The notes beneath the pieces are model-generated. The model worked only from the letters and a program-made list of their open reading frames with translations. It made no database searches and was not told the DNA's origin. A DNA stretch of 26,442 bases from a virus. The first letter of the stretch is position 1. The number at the start of each line of letters is the position of its first letter. The DNA is taken from IMG/VR virus record IMGVR_UViG_3300023284_000065, positions 1 to 26,442 of that record. One strand, given 5' to 3'. Position numbers and translations under genes: made by a program. Of the stretch, positions 4,837-26,160 are shown one piece after another.

Positions 4837-5109
4837 TTAGAGCCTTATAGCAAAGACTTTCGTTGGCACGTTGTCCCATTCTTCATGCGTTATCGTTTTA
4901 ATTTCGTATCCCTGCCAGGGAAGCTCTATCCGTGTTTTGGTATAGCCACGCATTAACACAAGCCTTTTGTATTGATGGTGGTGAAAACGAGCCTTCCAAT
5001 ATGAGTTGAATAAACGATAATCAAATTTCTTCTCGCCGGACTTTACCTGATCGAACCATTTAAACTTTAAGACCAGATATAAGATTGCTGGCATTGGCTT
5101 AGGGGTCAT
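4837..5109 (-). CDS. ASCH-domain-like protein (90 aa)
   Basis: The N-terminal half follows the ASCH/PUA-like pattern: LVLKFKWFDQVKSGEKKFDY is a match to the conserved strand, helix and GEK-x-x-(E/D)-YR element, followed by YWKAR and a second strand with a GY turn. ASCH proteins bind RNA or modified nucleotides, and some act as nucleases. Length is close to the minimal domain. The gene is coupled by ATGA to its upstream neighbour. Fold is likely; substrate is unknown. Confidence 0.65.
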   Translation of the reverse strand: MTPKPMPAILYLVLKFKWFDQVKSGEKKFDYRLFNSYWKARFHHHQYKRLVLMRGYTKTRIELPWQGYEIKTITHEEWDNVPTKVFAIRL

Positions 5110-6074: not shown

Positions 6075-6578
6075 TTAATCAAAGTTTATTCTTGCAAATT
6101 CTCCAAAAAACTCCACAGCTTTCCTGTCATAAGCTTTGGCCGCTTCACTAGCAGAATTAAAATAACCTAGATGCATTTGTTTCCCAGAGACTTGAATTTG
6201 GGCTTGCCATTTTTTGGTGCTCTTATGCCATCCGACTCCTTTATAGCCGGAAGTATTAGTTTTAATCTTATTAGCATTTTGCATATTTTGCGAACGTGTA
6301 GCACTTCGCAGATTAGACTTTATATTATTTATCCTATTACCATCAATATGATCTGTGTCAAAGCCTTCTAGCGTATTATTTATGACTCGATGCATGGTAA
6401 TCATTGCTGGTTTTGCAAAGACCGCAGAACTTTTTCTAACGGCATAACCATGATTATTTAAATGCCAATTATATTTTCCAATTTCTTCAGCATCTTCAAC
6501 GTCAATGATTGCGAATTTATCTTGAGACAAAGGCACAAGGGCATGACCACGCTTGAATATTAAAGGTTTTGGCATCAT
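6075..6578 (-). CDS. HNH homing endonuclease with AP2 domain (167 aa)
   Basis: A free-standing endonuclease of the HNH/AP2 type common in phages. The HNH core shows His63, then TDHIDG with Asp76-His77, and Asn84 before an NLR segment. The C-terminal AP2-like DNA-binding domain (about 108-166) starts SGYKGVGWHKSTKKW and ends in the EAAKAYD helix. The start is set at 6578 (ATGATG) because GGAG lies 7 nt upstream and because a longer start at 6620 would place the promoter at 6603-6631 inside the gene. It interrupts no visible gene. It is probably mobile, cutting homologous sites that lack it. Confidence 0.85.
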   Translation of the reverse strand: MMPKPLIFKRGHALVPLSQDKFAIIDVEDAEEIGKYNWHLNNHGYAVRKSSAVFAKPAMITMHRVINNTLEGFDTDHIDGNRINNIKSNLRSATRSQNMQNANKIKTNTSGYKGVGWHKSTKKWQAQIQVSGKQMHLGYFNSASEAAKAYDRKAVEFFGEFARINFD

Positions 6579-6602
6579 TTCTTTTCTCCCATAAGTCCAT
6601 AT

Positions 6603-6631
6603 ACTATACCATTTTGGCATTGTACTGTCAA
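6603..6631 (-). promoter_or_regulatory. near-perfect sigma-70 promoter before HNH gene
   Basis: On the minus strand TTGACA (6631-6626) is followed by a 17-nt spacer and TATAGT (6608-6603); the spacer ends in TGG, giving an extended -10. Transcription would start near 6596, about 18 nt before the HNH start codon. It would serve the endonuclease and probably the whole run of small genes to the left. Confidence 0.8.
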
Positions 6632-7318: not shown

Positions 7319-7866
7319 TTCTCAATCCCCCTTCTTCTCGTTGCTTTTTCAATTTTCCATTTCTCACGCCGTAGAATATTCTGTTTTTCTACTTTTTCCT
7401 GTTCCTGCTCTCGCATCTTGAGAGCCCGCTGAGTCCAATATTCTCCGTTGCCGATGTCTGACATCTCTCGCCTAAGAACATTGCCACAGCGGCTAATCGC
7501 ATCCTCTGAGCATGCTCCACAGTTACCAACAAGGCTGTAATCCATAAATCCGCTTTTTGCATCACCTTTCCGGGTATAAATATAATCAACGTAAAATACC
7601 CGGCCGTTATGGCAATCTGCGCAGCCGGGACTGTCTTTCTTCTGTAGTTCCTGTGGAAGTATTGGCCTGTAAGTATCCCAGACCATAGCCCATGTTGGAA
7701 ACCTCTCTCCCTTGGTTAATCGCTCAATAGTCTTACAAAAGGTTCGGTAATCACAATCTTCAAACTCAATAAGCCATTGATCTTTAATGGCCCCGGACTT
7801 TTTAACTGAAAACGCACCCTCCAGCCTTGCAAACAATTCATCAAATTGGGTATCAAGGATTGGCAT
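7315..7866 (-). CDS. zinc-ribbon protein, possible helicase loader/replisome partner (183 aa)
   Basis: The N-terminal 70 residues (helices ending FPTWAMVWDTYRP) resemble small phage helicase-loader or helicase-inhibitor N-domains. CADC (82-85) and CGAC (116-119) form a probable zinc ribbon. The C-terminus is a long basic helix. GGAGG at 6-nt spacing fixes the start. It follows and overlaps by 14 nt the initiator-like gene, the usual place of a loader (compare lambda O-P order). No Walker motif is present, so it is not a DnaC-type ATPase. Confidence 0.6.
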   Translation of the reverse strand: MPILDTQFDELFARLEGAFSVKKSGAIKDQWLIEFEDCDYRTFCKTIERLTKGERFPTWAMVWDTYRPILPQELQKKDSPGCADCHNGRVFYVDYIYTRKGDAKSGFMDYSLVGNCGACSEDAISRCGNVLRREMSDIGNGEYWTQRALKMREQEQEKVEKQNILRREKWKIEKATRRRGIEK

Positions 7867-8671
7867 CCCAAGCCTCCTGTCTTTGTTGCTTTATTATTTT
7901 AGCCCGTTCCCCTAAGCTCAATTCCTCTTTAACCTCAAGATTTATATAGTCTTTCCAGTTATGGTTGAACCATGTAGCGCCATTCTGAAACTGTCTATCG
8001 GGGTGCCCATTAGCTTGAATGGACTTCACATCGGCTATGTAATTAACTAATGCTGTCTGGATATTAATCCAATCTTCCGAGCTTTTAACTTGAGATTTGA
8101 ATTTCAGAAACGCTTTCTCTTTCCCCTTTTTCATTTCGTTTGGTAATGTTTCCCAAAGAAGATCAAAATTCTTTCTTGCGATTAGTTCAGATTTCCCTTT
8201 CTGAACAATTGGTTTTATATGTTTAGGATTAGGATTAGGATTAGGATTAGGATTCAAGCACTCACCTGAATTCACTTGTTTACAGTTGTTATCAGTAGTT
8301 GAAATACTTGTTTTATTGTTTAAGATAGCTTCTGGCGGGATTGGTGTTTTACGCTTATGCAATGATCTAACTATTTGATGGTCTGAGAAATTAGGAAAAA
8401 GACCAAAACGGACGTTATTATCTGTATGCACCCACATACGAATGCAATCAACTGCTTGCAACTCTAATAACCAATCATCAATATCATTTTCGCTTACCCT
8501 TTCCATCATTAAAGGGAAAATACCACCCCTGATAATCTTTGTCCGGGCATCAAAACAGCCATGATCGTCTGCCTTTGTTGTGAGTCTGTGAAAAAGCAAA
8601 TTAGCCCCTATTGAGATATTTGAAAGGGTTTGGCTTGTGCATATAGATTCCTTAATTATTCTATTGCTCAT
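7853..8671 (-). CDS. phage replication initiator-like protein (272 aa)
   Basis: The N-terminal domain begins MSNRIIKESICTS and contains FHRLTTKADDHGCFDAR, a pattern typical of phage replication/replisome-organiser proteins with a winged-helix fold. The middle (about 140-149) is five Asn-Pro pairs encoded by a TTAGGA hexamer array. The C-terminal part is helical (NFDLLWETLPN, FNHNWKDYI), as in DnaD/DnaB-like or loader-binding regions. It overlaps neighbours on both sides. It probably recognises the phage origin, which may lie within its own gene. Confidence 0.75.
   Translation of the reverse strand: MSNRIIKESICTSQTLSNISIGANLLFHRLTTKADDHGCFDARTKIIRGGIFPLMMERVSENDIDDWLLELQAVDCIRMWVHTDNNVRFGLFPNFSDHQIVRSLHKRKTPIPPEAILNNKTSISTTDNNCKQVNSGECLNPNPNPNPNPKHIKPIVQKGKSELIARKNFDLLWETLPNEMKKGKEKAFLKFKSQVKSSEDWINIQTALVNYIADVKSIQANGHPDRQFQNGATWFNHNWKDYINLEVKEELSLGERAKIIKQQRQEAWDANP
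8223..8254. repeat. TTAGGA hexamer tandem array
   Basis: Five perfect copies of TTAGGA plus TT on the plus strand (AATCCT on the coding strand). The array lies inside the initiator-like gene and encodes Asn-Pro repeats. Copy-number change keeps the frame. Iterons inside initiator genes are a known form of phage origin (lambda O), so an origin role is possible; slippage alone could also create it. Confidence 0.9.
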
Positions 8672-8982
8672 GATTCCGGTATCTCAATGAAGCCAAGGGC
8701 ACAGGATTTGTGGTAGCCATAGCCCGCATAAGTAAATAAACTTGTAAAATCACCTTCTTTTTGGAATGAACAACCCATGCCGTTACTACAAAATAGCCAC
8801 CCCATTTCCGCGGCCTTCTCAACCATCAAGCCAAAGACTTGCCATGATTCTAGACGGTGATAAGATAACAAATCATCTTCATCAGCAAGCACCCACACCC
8901 ACCGATCCGACTTGTTTCCGAGCAACCATGCAACTTTACCCAACTTCAAAGCCACCTTTTCAGCTAGTTCTTTGTCATCCAT
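8668..8982 (-). CDS. hypothetical early protein (104 aa)
   Basis: A soluble alpha/beta protein. WVWVLADEDD, a helix SWQVFGLMVEKAAEMGW, and a C-terminal YHKSCALGFIEI recall small phage proteins with an ABA-sandwich fold, but this is a weak resemblance. The start at 8982 has GGAGG 6 nt upstream, and that site is only a few bases from the U tract of the strong hairpin at 8998-9083. It overlaps the initiator-like gene by ATGA and is the first gene after the hairpin. Confidence 0.65.
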   Translation of the reverse strand: MDDKELAEKVALKLGKVAWLLGNKSDRWVWVLADEDDLLSYHRLESWQVFGLMVEKAAEMGWLFCSNGMGCSFQKEGDFTSLFTYAGYGYHKSCALGFIEIPES

Positions 8983-8997
8983 AAGCTACCTCCAAAC

Positions 8998-9083
8998 AAA
9001 AAAAGCCCTTATTCAAATACCGACCGAGTTAGGTTTGCGAGAACCTGCGGGTCTTAACCGCTTCGGTACTTGAATAAAGGCTT
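8998..9083 (-). ncRNA. 21-bp-stem three-way-junction RNA with U tract
   Basis: In the minus-strand RNA the arm 9083-9063 pairs with 9023-9003 over 21 consecutive pairs if G-U pairs are allowed; the DNA arms differ at only two positions, both giving G-U. The 39-nt interior holds two abutting hairpins (GCGG/CCGC with a 7-nt loop, 9061-9047; AGGUU/AACCU with a 6-nt loop, 9046-9031) and a 7-nt single strand. Seven U residues follow (9004-8998), then the GGAGG of the gene at 8982. It can be a terminator/attenuator, an RNase III site, or a stable small RNA. Confidence 0.75.
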
Positions 9084-9148
9084 GTTTGATTTTTCATTTA
9101 ATATCTCGCAGTTTAAATATACTCATATATAACTTAACACATTTTAGT

Positions 9149-9391
9149 TTATTTGCAAGCGTTATTTATTAAATATTTTATCTCTTCAATCAGAGCAACC
9201 ATTTGCATATAGTCCTGGTCACTCATACATCTATAAGCGTTGTCACAAGAACATGGGTAAAGTTCAGGCATTTCAATTATTGGCACAACAGGTTTAACAA
9301 TACATTTTGGTAATTCATTATTTTTACTACCTGAATTACTAGGAATTAAAAGAAATATTGAAACAATTAAAGATGAAATAAAAGGTTTCAT
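9149..9391 (-). CDS. small exported Cys-containing protein (80 aa)
   Basis: Residues 1-22 form a signal-peptide-like segment (Lys2, then a hydrophobic run to IPSNSGS). The mature part has several cysteines (C30, CSC 48-50, C56, near-terminal C79) that could form disulfides in the periplasm. No lipobox is seen. The gene is last in its unit, followed by the strong hairpin at 9083-8998. Function unknown; a periplasmic or envelope role is inferred. Confidence 0.6.
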   Translation of the reverse strand: MKPFISSLIVSIFLLIPSNSGSKNNELPKCIVKPVVPIIEMPELYPCSCDNAYRCMSDQDYMQMVALIEEIKYLINNACK

Positions 9392-11809: not shown

Positions 11810-11951
11810 TGCTCTCTCCCCCCTGTTTTTTAATCTCTTTATAGAATGCAACCCAAACCCCAATAACACCTACAGCGCATAACGACATTAATTGGGCTGT
11901 GAATAGTTTGGGGTTTAATGCGATATACTCGAATAGGAAATCAGGAATCAT
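11796..11951 (-). CDS. single-span membrane protein (51 aa)
   Basis: ATG at 11951 (MIPDFLFEYI) is preferred, with GGAG 7 nt upstream; the open frame extends to 12002. A membrane helix covers about residues 18-37, followed by KEIKKQGGESNGED. It overlaps both neighbours. Function unknown; early membrane peptides in temperate phages can affect lysogeny decisions or exclusion. Confidence 0.6.
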   Translation of the reverse strand: MIPDFLFEYIALNPKLFTAQLMSLCAVGVIGVWVAFYKEIKKQGGESNGED

Positions 11952-12153
11952 TGGATGGCTCCAGTTTGTCGGGGCATTCAAGGCAATCATAAATATTATC
12001 AACTAATTCTCTAGCCTCCATAGCCTTAATGATTAAATGATTTAATTGCTCTGAAGGGTTTTCCCGTTCTGTCGTCCAATTATCTGTGAGCTGGCAAGCA
12101 ATATTAACAATATTTTCTAAGGCGGGTTCTATTAATAACTCTTTGCCATCCAT
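11941..12153 (-). CDS. hypothetical early protein (70 aa)
   Basis: First gene after the promoter at 12224-12196, with GGAGG 6 nt before the ATG. Mostly helical and acidic; a CLECPD segment is near the end. No family recognised. As the promoter-proximal gene of the recombination/replication unit it is likely expressed early. Confidence 0.65.
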   Translation of the reverse strand: MDGKELLIEPALENIVNIACQLTDNWTTERENPSEQLNHLIIKAMEARELVDNIYDCLECPDKLEPSNDS

Positions 12154-12392: not shown

Positions 12393-12719
12393 TTATTTTA
12401 TCTTCAAAAGAACTTCGGTCAACATTTTATGTGTTTCCTTGCTTTCTTGTTTGGCCTCTTTTCGCATTTCCTTTATATCGGTCTTTACCTCTTTGACCAC
12501 TTCCCTTAAAATCTGTATCTCTTGCTTGATATCTTGACGCATTGTCGCCACTTCATCTTTACTCGCCGCTTTAGGGTGCATCCTTTTTTCTGCCCCGTCA
12601 ATAGCCCATGCCCCGGCTGAAAATATAAGCACTATGCAGGTAAAAAGGGTAGACACAAAGCTTTTCCAGTTCACGAATCTTTCCCCGAAGTTATTGTTTT
12701 CCTTTTTGGTAGCTGTCAT
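12393..12719 (-). CDS. membrane-anchored coiled-coil protein (108 aa)
   Basis: ATG at 12719 (MTATKKENN) lies in an ATGA overlap with the tail fibre stop and has GGAG 9 nt upstream; 12734 is a poorer alternative. One membrane helix at about 21-40 is followed by a long charged coiled coil (52-107). This form is often found beside phage fibre or lysis genes and is sometimes called holin-like or hemolysin-XhlA-like, but the domain order differs from XhlA. It is the last gene of the structural unit, and the only membrane protein in it besides the opposite-strand gene. Confidence 0.65.
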   Translation of the reverse strand: MTATKKENNNFGERFVNWKSFVSTLFTCIVLIFSAGAWAIDGAEKRMHPKAASKDEVATMRQDIKQEIQILREVVKEVKTDIKEMRKEAKQESKETHKMLTEVLLKIK

Positions 12720-14278
12720 GGCGTGTTTCTCCATGTTGGCTTAACAACCATTACCGAATTATGAGGGGTTTTTCTTCCCTGCATATGTTCATTCCCAAAT
12801 CTAATATAGTCATTATGGAATAACTCTTCAAGGGCTAGTTCTCCGTCTTCTTTCATCTGTTCCGCTATCTCTACTATTCGATCATTGGGATCAATCAAAA
12901 CGATAGATTTATCTTGCATGTCATTCCCTAGAAAAGAATGCGGGATGATTGCCATATCAGAGTTTTTAAAATCGCTGGTGATTTCAATGGTTTTAATAAT
13001 TCTTCTGTCGGGGTCTTCAAAAGCTTTTGATTCATCAATTATGCAATGCTTCCTGTATTCTTTACCAGTTTTAAGGTCAATCCATTCAGAGTGAATACAG
13101 GTAGGGCCATTATTTGCCCATGGAGGGTCAGGGGCATGATAACCAGCTAATATTTTATCTTGACTATCTAGTAGTAAAAATATAAAAGAATGTACCTCCC
13201 CATCCCCAATATCATAAGGCGGACAAGCTTGGACAAATCTTGATCTAACTGTAAGTGCTCCTGTGGAACCAGGTACAGTACCAAGAGTAAATCTCTGAAG
13301 TAAAGTAGTGCCTATGTTTAAGCTATCTGTTGCATAAGTAGATGCCGAGGCAGTATTAACATGATTAACAGGTGATACTGATATTCTGGCAGCAGCCGCA
13401 CTAGACGTTTTAATAGTAGGCCAGAACCCGTAATCTCCACCGGCCCCAGTTATTAATACCAGGCTCGTAGAACTTGTGCTTACATCCCCGGTAGTCGTTT
13501 TTAAACTCTCTTGGTCGATACTACCGGCAAGTGGAAGGGTGTTTATTTTTGTAGTGACCGCAGATGAAGTCGGAACTTTTGTTGCACTACTTGAAAGCGT
13601 GGTTTCAAATGTTGTAATCACCGCACCACTCACACCCTGAAATGAGGTATCCGCTTTAATAATGGTGCCATCTATAGTGGATGGAGTGGTAGTGCCTATA
13701 GGCCCAGGACTAAGTAAATCAGTGGTCGGTGTTATGCCTAAAGTAAAAGCATCATTAGTTGTACTAAAATATAAAGATACCACCTGATTATTTACAATCG
13801 TTCCAGCAGCGCTTGTTCCGTCAATGGTCTTAGCCCCAACACCATCAATATCCATTGTCATGGTGCCGGTATTACTGCCTACAGCCGTAAAGACAAACTG
13901 CTGTAAATCCACATAGGCTATAATTGTGGTAGCGGCATCAGCCGTTACAGTGGTCGTGCCTTGGACATTGCTTAGCTTTGTGGTGCCTATCTGCGTATCT
14001 GTCCCATTATCAAGCTCTTGGAACTGTTGAACGTCTGACGAATTGTCTACTCTGACTGAATATTTATCAATGCCGATCCATATTTTATTAGTTGGCTTGC
14101 CTAATGTATCCAGGGTTTGTGGGTTGGCTAGGGCGATAGATAATGCACGATTCGAGAAGATATCAGTAGGATTGGCTACAGGCTCAAGATTTTGTATCCC
14201 TATGTATATCTTCCCGCCGACTAACGGTTTCCCGTTTGTCCCGATAAACTGGGTATTTTCGCTGATAAATGCGCCCAT
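12716..14278 (-). CDS. tail fibre/tailspike B with P22-like head-binding domain (520 aa)
   Basis: Residues 1-92 form a P22-tailspike-like head-binding domain: GGKIYIGIQNLEPV, then NPQTLDTLGKPTNKIWIG and VDNSSDVQQFQEL. It should trimerise and attach to the tail. The middle is a Thr/Ser/Ala-rich shaft. The last 160 residues are different, globular and charged, with Cys and Trp (PPYDIGDGEVHSF, PPWANNGPTCIHSEW), and are probably the receptor-binding tip; I do not recognise an enzyme motif. The N-terminus is clearly paralogous to fibre A at 19259-20773. Its position after the ejection genes matches P22 gene 9. Confidence 0.8.
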   Translation of the reverse strand: MGAFISENTQFIGTNGKPLVGGKIYIGIQNLEPVANPTDIFSNRALSIALANPQTLDTLGKPTNKIWIGIDKYSVRVDNSSDVQQFQELDNGTDTQIGTTKLSNVQGTTTVTADAATTIIAYVDLQQFVFTAVGSNTGTMTMDIDGVGAKTIDGTSAAGTIVNNQVVSLYFSTTNDAFTLGITPTTDLLSPGPIGTTTPSTIDGTIIKADTSFQGVSGAVITTFETTLSSSATKVPTSSAVTTKINTLPLAGSIDQESLKTTTGDVSTSSTSLVLITGAGGDYGFWPTIKTSSAAAARISVSPVNHVNTASASTYATDSLNIGTTLLQRFTLGTVPGSTGALTVRSRFVQACPPYDIGDGEVHSFIFLLLDSQDKILAGYHAPDPPWANNGPTCIHSEWIDLKTGKEYRKHCIIDESKAFEDPDRRIIKTIEITSDFKNSDMAIIPHSFLGNDMQDKSIVLIDPNDRIVEIAEQMKEDGELALEELFHNDYIRFGNEHMQGRKTPHNSVMVVKPTWRNTP

Positions 14279-19258: not shown

Positions 19259-20773
19259 TTAAGCTACTTGATACATTCCCTGAAAATCAACTCTTGCACT
19301 ATTACCAAAAATAGCTACAGAAGAAGTACCAGTCGCTCCGGCCGTTCTGCCTCGGACCCTTCCAGTTGTACCATTAGATGTGAAATCAAAATTAAACGAT
19401 ACTGGAGAAGCAGCTAAACTAGAACTAATACCACATACAGCGGTTCCCGAACTAAAAGCTGTATCAACCGTAAAAGGTAAACCGCCATATAATGATGTAC
19501 TGCCGTCCCCTAAACTATTTATAGTCAAAGTACAATTAATAAAAACCAACTTCCCTATCTTCACATAATGTCCAATTTGATTTGTGTAGGTGGTAGTAGT
19601 TGCTCCATCTAACACCGGCGTCCATGTTCCTTCTTCATAATCATCAAGATCATTAGCCCCAGATGATGCCACTTGGGTTGACGGGAATGTAACGTGACCT
19701 GCTGTTTTTAAAGTTGTCGCTCCAAGAATACCTACGTTGGAATCAAATGTTAAGTTACTCCCCGACTTTGGCGCTAAATCCCCAGTTGCGTCAATAACAA
19801 ACATTGGGAAACAAGTGGTATCAGTAGATTCATCAGCTACGGTTATTTGTGTTGGAACCCCACTAGAAGCCGCCGCACTTTCCCAATCCGTTCCATCAGA
19901 GGTTAATACATTTCCCGAAGTACCGGGGGCAATAGATGTAACAGCGTTCGTGCCTTCTCCTATCAATACATTATTTTCAGTATGGGTAACGGCTCCAGTC
20001 CCTCCATTAGCAACAGGTAGTGTTCCGGTAACATCGGCAGACATATCTACATTAGACAAACTATTGCCCGTGGCATTTGCGTCAAATGTTTTATTAGTGA
20101 GAACATCTGTTGTAGCCTTTCCCATAAGGGTATCTGTGGCATCTGGGAGCGTTATAGACCTTGCCGCCGTATGAGAAGTAATAAGAGTAAGCTTGGTGCC
20201 GGTTGTAGCCCCGCTTTGATCCAGTATAGTTTCCTTTGTAGAATCGACATCGTCTTGAAAGGTTAACTCACTCCCTGATACCGCTTTTAAGTTCAAATCT
20301 CCTGAAGTAGAAGAAACTGTATTCGCGTCAAGTTGTAAATTACCGGCTTTCACTATGGTGGCGGAGGTAGTATCACCTATAGCCCCCGGCTCTGACATTT
20401 TTGCCGTTATATTTGCCGGGGTAGTCGCTACATCCGTTGCAGTCCCAGTAACAGTCTGGAGGTCTGTTGCTAATTCAGCAGTAATGCCAATTCCATCGCC
20501 ATTATCAAGCTCTTGGAACTGTTGTGCATCACTTGAATTGTCAACACGCATTGAAAACTTATCAGCACTTATCCATATTTTATTAGTTGGTTTTCCTAGA
20601 GAGTCTAGGGTTTGCGGATTAGTTATAGGAACAGTTAATGCTCTATCAGAAAATAATCCTATCCCCGTTGTTACAGGGTCTTGATTCTGCACACCTATAT
20701 ATAACTTGCCACCTGTTAACGGTTTTCCGTTAGTACCTACAAATTGGGTGTTATCACTAATAAATGCAGACAT
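19259..20773 (-). CDS. tail fibre A with P22-like head-binding domain (504 aa)
   Basis: Residues 1-92 are the same head-binding domain as in fibre B (GGKLYIGVQNQDPV, NPQTLDSLGKPTNKIWIS, VDNSSDAQQFQEL). The shaft has typical fibre repeats (LTNKTFDAN, LPVANGGTGA, NVLTSDGTDWESA). The C-terminal domain starts DDYEEGTWTPVLDGA and continues with a GHYVKIGKLVFINC strand, a common phage tip domain. It occupies the place of the tail needle gene 26 of P22, and no separate needle gene is visible. It may do host recognition while fibre B does a second contact. Confidence 0.85.
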   Translation of the reverse strand: MSAFISDNTQFVGTNGKPLTGGKLYIGVQNQDPVTTGIGLFSDRALTVPITNPQTLDSLGKPTNKIWISADKFSMRVDNSSDAQQFQELDNGDGIGITAELATDLQTVTGTATDVATTPANITAKMSEPGAIGDTTSATIVKAGNLQLDANTVSSTSGDLNLKAVSGSELTFQDDVDSTKETILDQSGATTGTKLTLITSHTAARSITLPDATDTLMGKATTDVLTNKTFDANATGNSLSNVDMSADVTGTLPVANGGTGAVTHTENNVLIGEGTNAVTSIAPGTSGNVLTSDGTDWESAAASSGVPTQITVADESTDTTCFPMFVIDATGDLAPKSGSNLTFDSNVGILGATTLKTAGHVTFPSTQVASSGANDLDDYEEGTWTPVLDGATTTTYTNQIGHYVKIGKLVFINCTLTINSLGDGSTSLYGGLPFTVDTAFSSGTAVCGISSSLAASPVSFNFDFTSNGTTGRVRGRTAGATGTSSVAIFGNSARVDFQGMYQVA

Positions 20774-24278: not shown

Positions 24279-24788
24279 TTAATAAAATGATGTCTGGGCT
24301 TCTTTTCTTGCGTCAATTGCTTGTTGCTTGTCAATAAAAGTGCCCAAATTAATCATTTTTCCATTAACCACTATCCGCGCCCGCCATCTGCCGTTATCCT
24401 TTCTTTGTGTAACACCAGCAGTCCCGCTTGTGTTTGTGGCATGTAACTTTTGATTCTTACCATTAACACTATGGGGGACGCTTCTTAAGTTGCGCCATTT
24501 GTTATTAAGGCCATCACCGTCAATATGGTCTATTTCTTCTGGTTGCTGACCTGTCATCCAAACCCATATTATTCTATGAACATAAGCATTCCAAACAGGT
24601 TTCCCTATCCAAACCCTGAGATAAAGTCTTATACTATTTTTAACCCCACTTTCATCTACACGGCCGGCCGCATCACCTGCTTTAGATTTACTGCCCTGTC
24701 CCCTTTTGTGCTTATAAGACAATAAACCAGTTTCAGGGCAATAATTAAACATCCTTCTCACTTCTTCATAAAATATGATTTTAGCCAT
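24279..24788 (-). CDS. HNH homing endonuclease with AP2-like domain (169 aa)
   Basis: Second free-standing HNH/AP2 endonuclease. GGAGG 7 nt before ATG 24788 sets the start, although the frame is open to 24908 inside the coat gene end. An NUMOD4-like or tail-linked N-terminus (FNYCPETGLLSYKHKRG) is followed by the HNH core: His71, IDHIDGDG with Asp87-His88, and Asn95-Asn96 before NLR. Residues 120-160 (SGTAGVTQRKDNGRWRARI) are AP2-like. It lies between coat and decoration genes, a typical homing site near conserved genes. Confidence 0.85.
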   Translation of the reverse strand: MAKIIFYEEVRRMFNYCPETGLLSYKHKRGQGSKSKAGDAAGRVDESGVKNSIRLYLRVWIGKPVWNAYVHRIIWVWMTGQQPEEIDHIDGDGLNNKWRNLRSVPHSVNGKNQKLHATNTSGTAGVTQRKDNGRWRARIVVNGKMINLGTFIDKQQAIDARKEAQTSFY

Positions 24789-24830
24789 TTTGGAGCCTCC
24801 GGTAAATAAACATATACTATTAATATGCCC

Positions 24831-24836
24831 ATTATA
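24831..24836 (-). promoter_or_regulatory. possible -10 box before HNH gene
   Basis: A perfect TATAAT on the minus strand in the gap between coat and HNH genes, 42 nt upstream of the start codon. The -35 region is poor (TAGCTA or TTAGCT), so it is a candidate only. It would let the endonuclease be expressed apart from the late operon. Confidence 0.3.
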
Positions 24837-24888
24837 CCGGATAACTCTAAAGATAGCTAAACTTAACCATATTAACTTATGCCAACGG

Positions 24889-26160
24889 CTAGCCCCACCC
24901 TTGTCCACTAAAGAACGGATTCAGCACTGCATAAGCGGGGCGCAAATCGAACCTTACAGATTGTACATTGGTAATACCATCAGAGAACTTGGAAACACGG
25001 ATTTGTATCCCATCTTCCGTGGTTGCCAAGGTATCAGTAGAAAACAGTTTCTTAATCGGTACGGAACCGATAGAGAAAGCCTGTTTATGCCAGAACAAAT
25101 TAGGCTGGAACAAGGTAGCGTCCGCATTCAATAGAACTGCTACCGTGTTATTCAGGATGGCTGAAACCGTGGTGTTGTAAGACCCGCCTGATTCAAAGAT
25201 CGCCGGACCAGTTAGAATCAACGTACCCGCGCCACTTGTAAAGGTAGCATCCGCCGTTACGGTCGCAGTCCAGGTAACATTAGCACCAGAACCATTAATC
25301 ACCGCTGTTCTAGTTGAAAGGTTCAAACGATTAATTCCAGTGAAACTAACAACCTGACCGGCGAAAATGGTCCCAGTAAATGTACCAAATGCATCAAAGG
25401 TTACGCTCTGGGTCATGGTGTCCTTAGCCGTAACATAAGTTACATCAGGGGCACCATCAACAGCCCCATTCACATCACTGGTGGTGCCAGTCGTGAAACT
25501 CGCCAATGAAGTAGAAGTCATAACTTCCAAGCCCGCGAAATCAGTAGTAATAAGCGCTTTTTTATGGGCAGATTCAACCAATGATCCAGAAGTACCACCA
25601 GAACCAAGGGAACGCTGAATATCAGCCAGTGCAACCTGAGTGAAAGGATTCATAGCATAGCTCCACAGGTCGTCATCTGGTATGCCATTAGCTTTCATCA
25701 CGGCGCTGGCTTCTGCAACATCAGACCATGTAGTAACAGCAGTTCCCACCGTACCAGCTAAGAGCGCTGAGTTCTGCATCATGAATTGAGCAAAATCAAG
25801 CTCCATATCGGTTACAATACGAGTTGCCGCCGGTGAAAGTAATTGGTCAATTTGGTCCATTTTGATCGCTTCATCGGCTTCATCAAAATCAACCAATACC
25901 GTGAAATAATCCTGCACTATACCGCTGGCTTTACCTGTAATGATATCGTCAGCGATTCCAGTGGCATCACCTGTAGGACTTCGTGAACTGGTGTAATCGG
26001 TAGGTCTTTTAAAATCTACCGTATCACCAGACGAAGGGTTAAATTTTCCAGCAAGCAATTGAGTGTCTACATTCTTAGATAACACCCTTGCCGATTCAAA
26101 CTTTTCCAAAAACACTCTTGCGAGTTGCCTGGTTATATTACTGTCAAAATTGTTAGGCAT
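24889..26160 (-). CDS. P22-like major capsid (coat) protein (423 aa)
   Basis: Length (423 against 430 aa in P22) and plan fit the P22 coat family, an HK97-fold shell protein. The N-terminus DSNITRQLARVFLEKFESAR and VDFKRPTDYTS are typical. The middle has a beta-rich Thr/Gly stretch (about 270-350) that could be the insertion domain. The C-terminal segment LFWHKQAFSIGSVPIKKL ... DLRPAYAVLNP is characteristic. AAGGATG upstream sets the start, 11 nt after the scaffold-like stop. Confidence 0.85.
   Translation of the reverse strand: MPNNFDSNITRQLARVFLEKFESARVLSKNVDTQLLAGKFNPSSGDTVDFKRPTDYTSSRSPTGDATGIADDIITGKASGIVQDYFTVLVDFDEADEAIKMDQIDQLLSPAATRIVTDMELDFAQFMMQNSALLAGTVGTAVTTWSDVAEASAVMKANGIPDDDLWSYAMNPFTQVALADIQRSLGSGGTSGSLVESAHKKALITTDFAGLEVMTSTSLASFTTGTTSDVNGAVDGAPDVTYVTAKDTMTQSVTFDAFGTFTGTIFAGQVVSFTGINRLNLSTRTAVINGSGANVTWTATVTADATFTSGAGTLILTGPAIFESGGSYNTTVSAILNNTVAVLLNADATLFQPNLFWHKQAFSIGSVPIKKLFSTDTLATTEDGIQIRVSKFSDGITNVQSVRFDLRPAYAVLNPFFSGQGWG

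Follow-up and report, generated by a model that had tools for sequence, protein, structure and literature searches.

A candidate conditional terminator with a leader-complementary loop ahead of phage replication genes

RNA control of replication genes

In the plasmids ColIb-P9, IncB and IncL/M, a pseudoknot and a leader peptide control the replication gene rep, and the pseudoknot makes the ribosome site of rep accessible. Among phages, the C4 RNA of P1 and P7 (RF01695) and the CI RNA of P4 are akin in design. CI RNA is processed from an untranslated primary transcript and pairs with the segments seqA, upstream, and seqC, downstream, and this pairing stops transcription of the P4 replication genes (PMC4825925). 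For pIP501-like plasmids, PMC5703833 places inverted repeats and a poly-T stretch just 5' of rep. Here we analyze an RNA element on the minus strand, at positions 8998 to 9083, of IMG/VR virus record IMGVR_UViG_3300023284_000065, a linear record of 26,442 bases that was analyzed at its full length and is called the window below. The element, which heads a replication operon, consists of a long hairpin (SL2) and the U tract after it; one SL2 loop (L2) is complementary to a segment of the upstream leader (L1), which may itself lie in the loop of a leader hairpin (SL1).

We propose from sequence comparison that the element, lying in the operon's 5' leader, is a conditional intrinsic terminator, i.e., an attenuator, in which L1 and L2 make a loop-loop contact, and we put the probability of this reading at about 0.55. 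By analogy, our best reading is that the element would resemble P4 CI RNA or pT181 attenuation in its working and would belong to no known family.

The likeness to ColIb-P9, IncB and IncL/M lies in an upstream loop complementary to a hairpin by rep and in a putative leader open reading frame; here, in contrast, the U tract points to termination of transcription. As to leader-peptide attenuators, a putative 22-codon open reading frame overlaps SL2 in the window, and several families have no AUG at that place. The stem followed by a U tract has, by sequence, the look of an intrinsic terminator, and the cis-regulatory leader layout is like that of structured RNA families in Rfam, with no family match. 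With P4 CI, the element would share an RNA from an untranslated transcript, phage replication genes, complementary segments on the same strand and the premature termination proposed here, and the window has a loop complementary to an upstream, seqA-like leader segment. It differs in that this loop sits in a terminator-like hairpin directly before the first AUG and in the absence of a C4 covariance match. With pT181/pIP501, it shares a terminator-like hairpin and T tract immediately 5' of the replication-initiator gene, whereas those systems use a counter-transcript and an arm-pairing pre-emptor and here the loop pairs with the same strand. P4 CI (in logic) and pT181/pIP501 (in position) each match in part, and neither matches on all tested features.

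Loop-leader complementarity among relatives of the initiator

The DNA of the element had no blastn match among 50,697 phage records and none among 50 P22-like records. A pattern with the stem fixed found nothing in viral contigs and one match in genome contigs, in a GC-rich part of a contig from Sulfitobacter, which we took for chance. Since no DNA homologue was found, the comparison moved to relatives of the initiator protein, drawn from viral contigs in overlapping sets of 6, 13, 35 and then 64 loci. Many of them, far from all, have a long hairpin and U tract directly before an AUG; at L006, L188, L189, L147 and L226 an SL2-type hairpin precedes an earlier gene that leads to rep.

The loops of these hairpins are complementary to their own leaders far beyond expectation. 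A first set of 9 families comprised the window and 10 loci and was chosen solely for a hairpin with a U tract and AUG; in all 11, the best helix of the 100-nt leader with the hairpin interior was 15 to 24 nt away from the stem. A swap matrix of 15 families, each leader being paired with each hairpin, gave an own-pair mean of 19.8 against 13.2 (0 of 200,000 permutations). Over 19 families, own L1:L2 pairing summed to 360.4 against 244.5 expected (0 of 100,000 permutations, with or without the window), and the best helix fell within 12 to 30 nt of SL2 in 16 of the 19 (shuffles: mean, 3.8; maximum, 10). A control with 17 families, from which L183 and L230 were excluded, revealed no excess pairing for either arm of the stem or for the leader outside the band; with the 5' arm, own pairing was 184.4 against 186.4 expected, with 10.8 for the window. 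In the SL2 folds of these 17 families most of L2 is unpaired, and by our reading of the folds 12 of 15 families have L1 in the loop of a predicted leader hairpin. Of the SL2-type hairpins, 13 of 22 upstream of rep pass the thresholds for L1:L2 and SL1, against 10 of 90 elsewhere (Fisher 7e-6). Near copies were merged before counting (L151 into L136, L142 into L140, and L141, L143 and L146 into L129), and L137/L177 was left out because of its short leader. This sequence comparison shows a class of phage elements that share, at this place, SL2 and the U tract, with L1:L2 complementarity at a constrained distance; the window conforms to it. The earlier note had held that random interiors in homologous loci would mark an ordinary terminator; across the class the interior is not random, since one SL2 loop is complementary to the leader.

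The sequences of L1 and L2 vary between phages. At L145 and L147 the loop pair GUGCAU:AUGCAC is kept while the stems of SL1 and SL2 change, with compensatory double changes in 3 of 5 SL1, 3 of 10 outer SL2 and 1 of 3 inner SL2 pairs and none broken; L136 and L151 differ by one double change within L1:L2. Phage-specific loops, on the same strand and in the same type of operon, with a loop complementary to an upstream leader segment, would also suit control of the P4 CI type: SL2 would be excised or released as a stable small RNA, and L2 would pair in trans with L1 of new leaders and terminate them prematurely, giving immunity or copy control. The roughly constant spacing between L1 and SL2 suggests contact in cis instead, and the C4 covariance model (RF01695) had no matches in the window or in 11 and 8 relative loci, nor in a permissive search of window positions 8900 to 9200. 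We consider this alternative unlikely, if worth keeping in view.

The U tract is kept among the relatives, and most stems are shorter than in the window, with 8 to 15 scored pairs; L226, with a small gene before rep, has 20 and starts with AAGCC as in the window. A near-perfect 21-bp duplex such as that of the window is in general a suitable substrate for RNase III, which could cut the polycistronic transcript and free the ribosome site of the first gene (104 aa). The retained U tract and mostly shorter stems speak against this, processing would leave the L1:L2 complementarity unexplained, and we regard such a role as very improbable.

Two sequence motifs recur in the leaders. TAnnTTTG, which we take to be the Bacteroidota -7 box, occurs on the sense strand upstream of SL2 in 11 of 19 families (shuffles: mean, 1.1; maximum, 5), suggesting that many carriers may infect Bacteroidota; it is absent from the window. 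The linker between L1 and SL2 reads AUGAAAA in the window, L136, L179, L186 and L226 and AUGAA in L155 and L138, and 7 of 19 families have ATGAA within the 30 nt that precede SL2 (null: mean, 1.25; maximum, 5); several families have no linker AUG. Outer stems of all families contain 32 G-U against 7 A-C pairs, an asymmetry subject to bias, as the search for stems was made on the sense strand; L1:L2 shows no clear asymmetry, the sense strand being better in 4 of 15 and A-C in 6 of 15.

Some individual loci deserve mention. L128 (2593-2641) and L189 (1903-1948) differ in their SL2 stems and have an identical L1/L2 pair (GCUUCGAC:GUCGAAGC), as if it were kept as a unit. The SL2 interiors of L145 and L147 have GAGUAG...GCGAAA around L2 in common, perhaps a conserved internal loop, with similar interiors in L006 (GAGUAG, CGAAA) and L140 (AGUAG). 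L193, which has an element before rep, carries downstream a second similar hairpin (4857-4903; UUGCCC:GGGCAA), followed by a U tract and a 106-aa gene.

The element and its surroundings in the window

The coordinates of the element and of the operon that it heads are given in Table 1. The outer stem of SL2, 9083-9063 with 9023-9003, forms 21 of 21 pairs, two of them G-U in the minus-strand RNA, and is the longest minus-strand inverted repeat with a loop of <80 nt that was found in the window. The minus-strand RNA 9083-8998 has a minimum free energy of -38.1 kcal/mol (z score, -6.91), and 0 of 200 shuffles were as stable. These pairs, the two abutting inner hairpins (as predictions), the 7-U tract and the GGAGG that follows the tract after GTTT all agree with the earlier note, as does its failure to recognize a family: none of the Rfam 15 families scored up to its gathering cutoff, either in the window or in the loci of 19 relatives.

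Table 1. Positions of the element and of the first genes of its operon in the window
Feature	Positions	Strand	Basis
SL1, weak A-U leader hairpin (AUUUAA / UUAAAU), L1 in loop	9096-9118	-	predicted leader fold
L1, leader segment UGCGAGA, complementary to L2	9104-9110	-	pairing analysis
Putative 22-codon leader open reading frame (MKNQTSLYSSTEAVKTRRFSQT, then stop) from linker AUG	9029-9097	-	sequence
SL2, 21-pair stem around two hairpins; proposed conditional terminator	9003-9083	-	fold
Inner hairpin 1, GCGG-UUAAGAC-CCGC	9047-9061	-	predicted fold
Inner hairpin 2, AGGUU-CUCGCA-AACCU, presents L2	9031-9046	-	predicted fold
L2, UCUCGCA, in loop of inner hairpin 2	9036-9042	-	pairing analysis
U tract, 7 U, first two inside stem	8998-9004	-	sequence
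Shine-Dalgarno GGAGG of first operon gene	8989-8993	-	4 nt beyond U tract
First operon gene, 104-aa ORFan	8668-8982	-	ATG at 8982
Replication initiation protein, second operon gene	7853-8671	-	phrog_1408, E 6.3e-16

L1 and L2 of the window can form seven Watson-Crick pairs, the 3' end of L1 being 20 nt from the base of SL2 and so inside the 12- to 30-nt band, and six of the seven bases of L2 are unpaired in SL2. The minus strand of the window has one copy of UCUCGCA and two of UGCGAGA. With the loop strings chosen by hand, 0.26% of shuffled leaders matched this pairing under the distance rule learned from the class, and 0.075% did so with SL1. We judge that the window quite probably belongs, on these sequence features, to the class with the order SL1, linker and SL2 that heads rep operons; the evidence from the window alone is moderate.

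The plus strand of the element also folds strongly (z score, -6.6), as would be expected for pT181/pIP501-type attenuation, in which a plus-strand counter-transcript binds the leader and causes SL2 to form. A 9/12 plus-strand promoter-like match at 8839-8866 could serve such a transcript, although it is of a kind often expected by chance: the window scan gave 30 promoter-like matches against 22.3 expected (standard deviation, 4.2), somewhat above but near chance. In pT181 the pairing partner of the pre-emptor is the terminator's 5' arm; the leaders of the families show no excess pairing with that arm, and we find this mechanism improbable. More remote still is a single-stranded DNA element, a priming hairpin or origin, as its position adjoining the initiator gene might suggest. 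Where the two stem arms differ, the minus-strand RNA has G-U pairs and the plus strand would have A-C mismatches, the U tract is on the minus strand as well, and TAnnTTTG precedes SL2 on the sense strand in the 11 of 19 families counted above; we give this scarcely any credence.

The earlier note had placed the element just ahead of a run of replication genes. It does head the operon, and the next gene is an ORFan with no PHROG or Pfam family and no relative in phages or viral contigs; the initiator gene, whose start overlaps it by 4 nt, comes second. The initiator protein has no Pfam match, and a DUF1064 protein is encoded further downstream. A purine-rich Shine-Dalgarno-like sequence precedes 21 of 30 examined window genes, so that the host probably uses such sites.

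The assigned genes of the window are carried on the minus strand. They include a P22-like set of head genes, with a capsid protein similar to those of HK620, Sf6 and Pseudoalteromonas phage H6/1, and a gene for an Erf protein. The search for relatives via Erf found none, and none of the 80 loci kept of 347 that were reached via the major capsid protein (best match, 72%) shares the early region closely. No plasmids were found in the plasmid search. One of 398 Pseudomonadota genomes has a rep relative, with no SL2-like hairpin upstream of it. No tRNA was found.

Elsewhere on the minus strand, a 15-pair terminator-like hairpin (12318-12282) is followed by an 11/12 sigma-70-type promoter-like site (12224-12196; TTGACA-17-TATATT) before gene 11941-12153, possibly marking the end of the late genes and the start of the early genes. 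Genes 12716-14278 and 19259-20773 have near-identical N termini (MGAFISENTQFIGTNGKPL and MSAFISDNTQFVGTNGKPL) and probably encode two tail proteins with one head-binding domain. There are two HNH endonuclease genes (6075-6620 and 24279-24908), one of which overlaps the end of the capsid gene. The strongest 110-nt minus-strand fold (2493-2602; -48.0 kcal/mol) has a 17-pair stem in coding sequence, within the 125-aa open reading frame 2350-2727.

Proposed mechanism

Because the ribosome site follows the U tract by 4 nt and the window scan gave no promoter-like match between SL2 and the first operon gene, the operon needs either read-through of SL2 or an unseen start, and this argues for a conditional terminator. 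The same arrangement is difficult to reconcile with a plain terminator of the upstream transcript, for which the stem and U tract would suffice, which could insulate the operon from upstream genes and in which the loop complementarity of the window would have arisen by chance. Such chance is allowed by the pairing of the window taken without the learned distance rule (P = 0.091). It fits poorly with the complementarity of the class, far above expectation, and with the agreement of the window with the learned rule, and we hold a plain terminator to be rather unlikely.

As a conditional terminator, SL2 with its U tract would stop most transcripts just before the ribosome-binding site, and the ORFan and the initiator would be made by read-through alone. 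We infer that SL2 terminates and that L1:L2 pairing, as a loop-loop contact, changes the outcome. In our working model, a ribosome starting at the linker AUG, just behind L1, would open SL2 and let the polymerase pass; in the window, the putative leader frame spans the 5' arm of SL2 and has its stop codon in the junction. Pairing of L1 with L2, either in cis or by SL2 RNA set free earlier from other phage copies, would hide the linker start and favor termination, such that expression of the replication genes would fall as templates accumulate. Contact in cis would hold or block the leader start codon; alternatively, contact would be made in trans between copies. The 21-bp stem and inner hairpin 2 of the window may be one way to present L2; the model assigns no part to inner hairpin 1. 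A classical antiterminator was rejected: across 17 families the leader pairs with neither arm of SL2 above expectation.

Several further observations weigh against this reading. In many rep relatives, rep is not preceded by a hairpin of this kind; examples are phages Tyrion and ST512-KPC3phi13.3 and the deposited phage records L115 to L119. The window's own pair ranks second in its row and third in its column of 15 in the swap matrix, and its pairing without the distance rule is the one given above. Its SL1 is marginal (-0.4 kcal/mol; z score, 0.51; P = 0.14 against shuffles), and the promoter scan identified no promoter in its leader. The three-way junction named in the earlier note is predicted for SL2 and is not supported by energy, because the stability of the inner hairpins by themselves does not exceed that of shuffles (z score, -0.05). 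The best helix lies outside the 12- to 30-nt band in L226, L201 and L183, and in the 19-family test, which included both, L183 fails and L230 is doubtful. That set was not wholly blind: L188, L189, L147 and L226 were first noticed via the pairing, and L179, L185, L186 and L201 were picked by eye with the pairing in view; the scan thresholds and the band were set after members had been seen. A scan by L1:L2 and SL1 thresholds alone is unspecific, with 24 matches against a re-pairing null of 18.5, and therefore a locus can be assigned to the class only when it also precedes a replication operon.

Of the options suggested in the earlier note, attenuation is the best supported, by the recurrence of the layout and by the loop-leader complementarity; we found no evidence of a small-molecule riboswitch. 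Within the literature covered by our search, the layout is not described in phages.

A more far-reaching and doubtful extension is that the terminated leader acts as its own sensor, the terminator loop recognizing the leader loop of other transcript copies such that template number throttles the initiator. If this is true, the elements would make up an unnamed and widespread class of phage RNA, the sense-strand equivalent of copy control in plasmids, with phage-specific loop pairs serving as incompatibility or immunity groups.

That many distant phages have this layout ahead of their replication genes suggests a form of replication control not named so far. Where terminator-looking hairpins stand before genes, complementarity of their loops to the leader is worth checking. 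How the replication initiator is timed or limited in phages without well-studied relatives is mostly unknown; a leader with loop pairs that can be tested by swapping bears on this question and would bring many uncultivated phages within the range of the RNA control of replication known from plasmids and P4.
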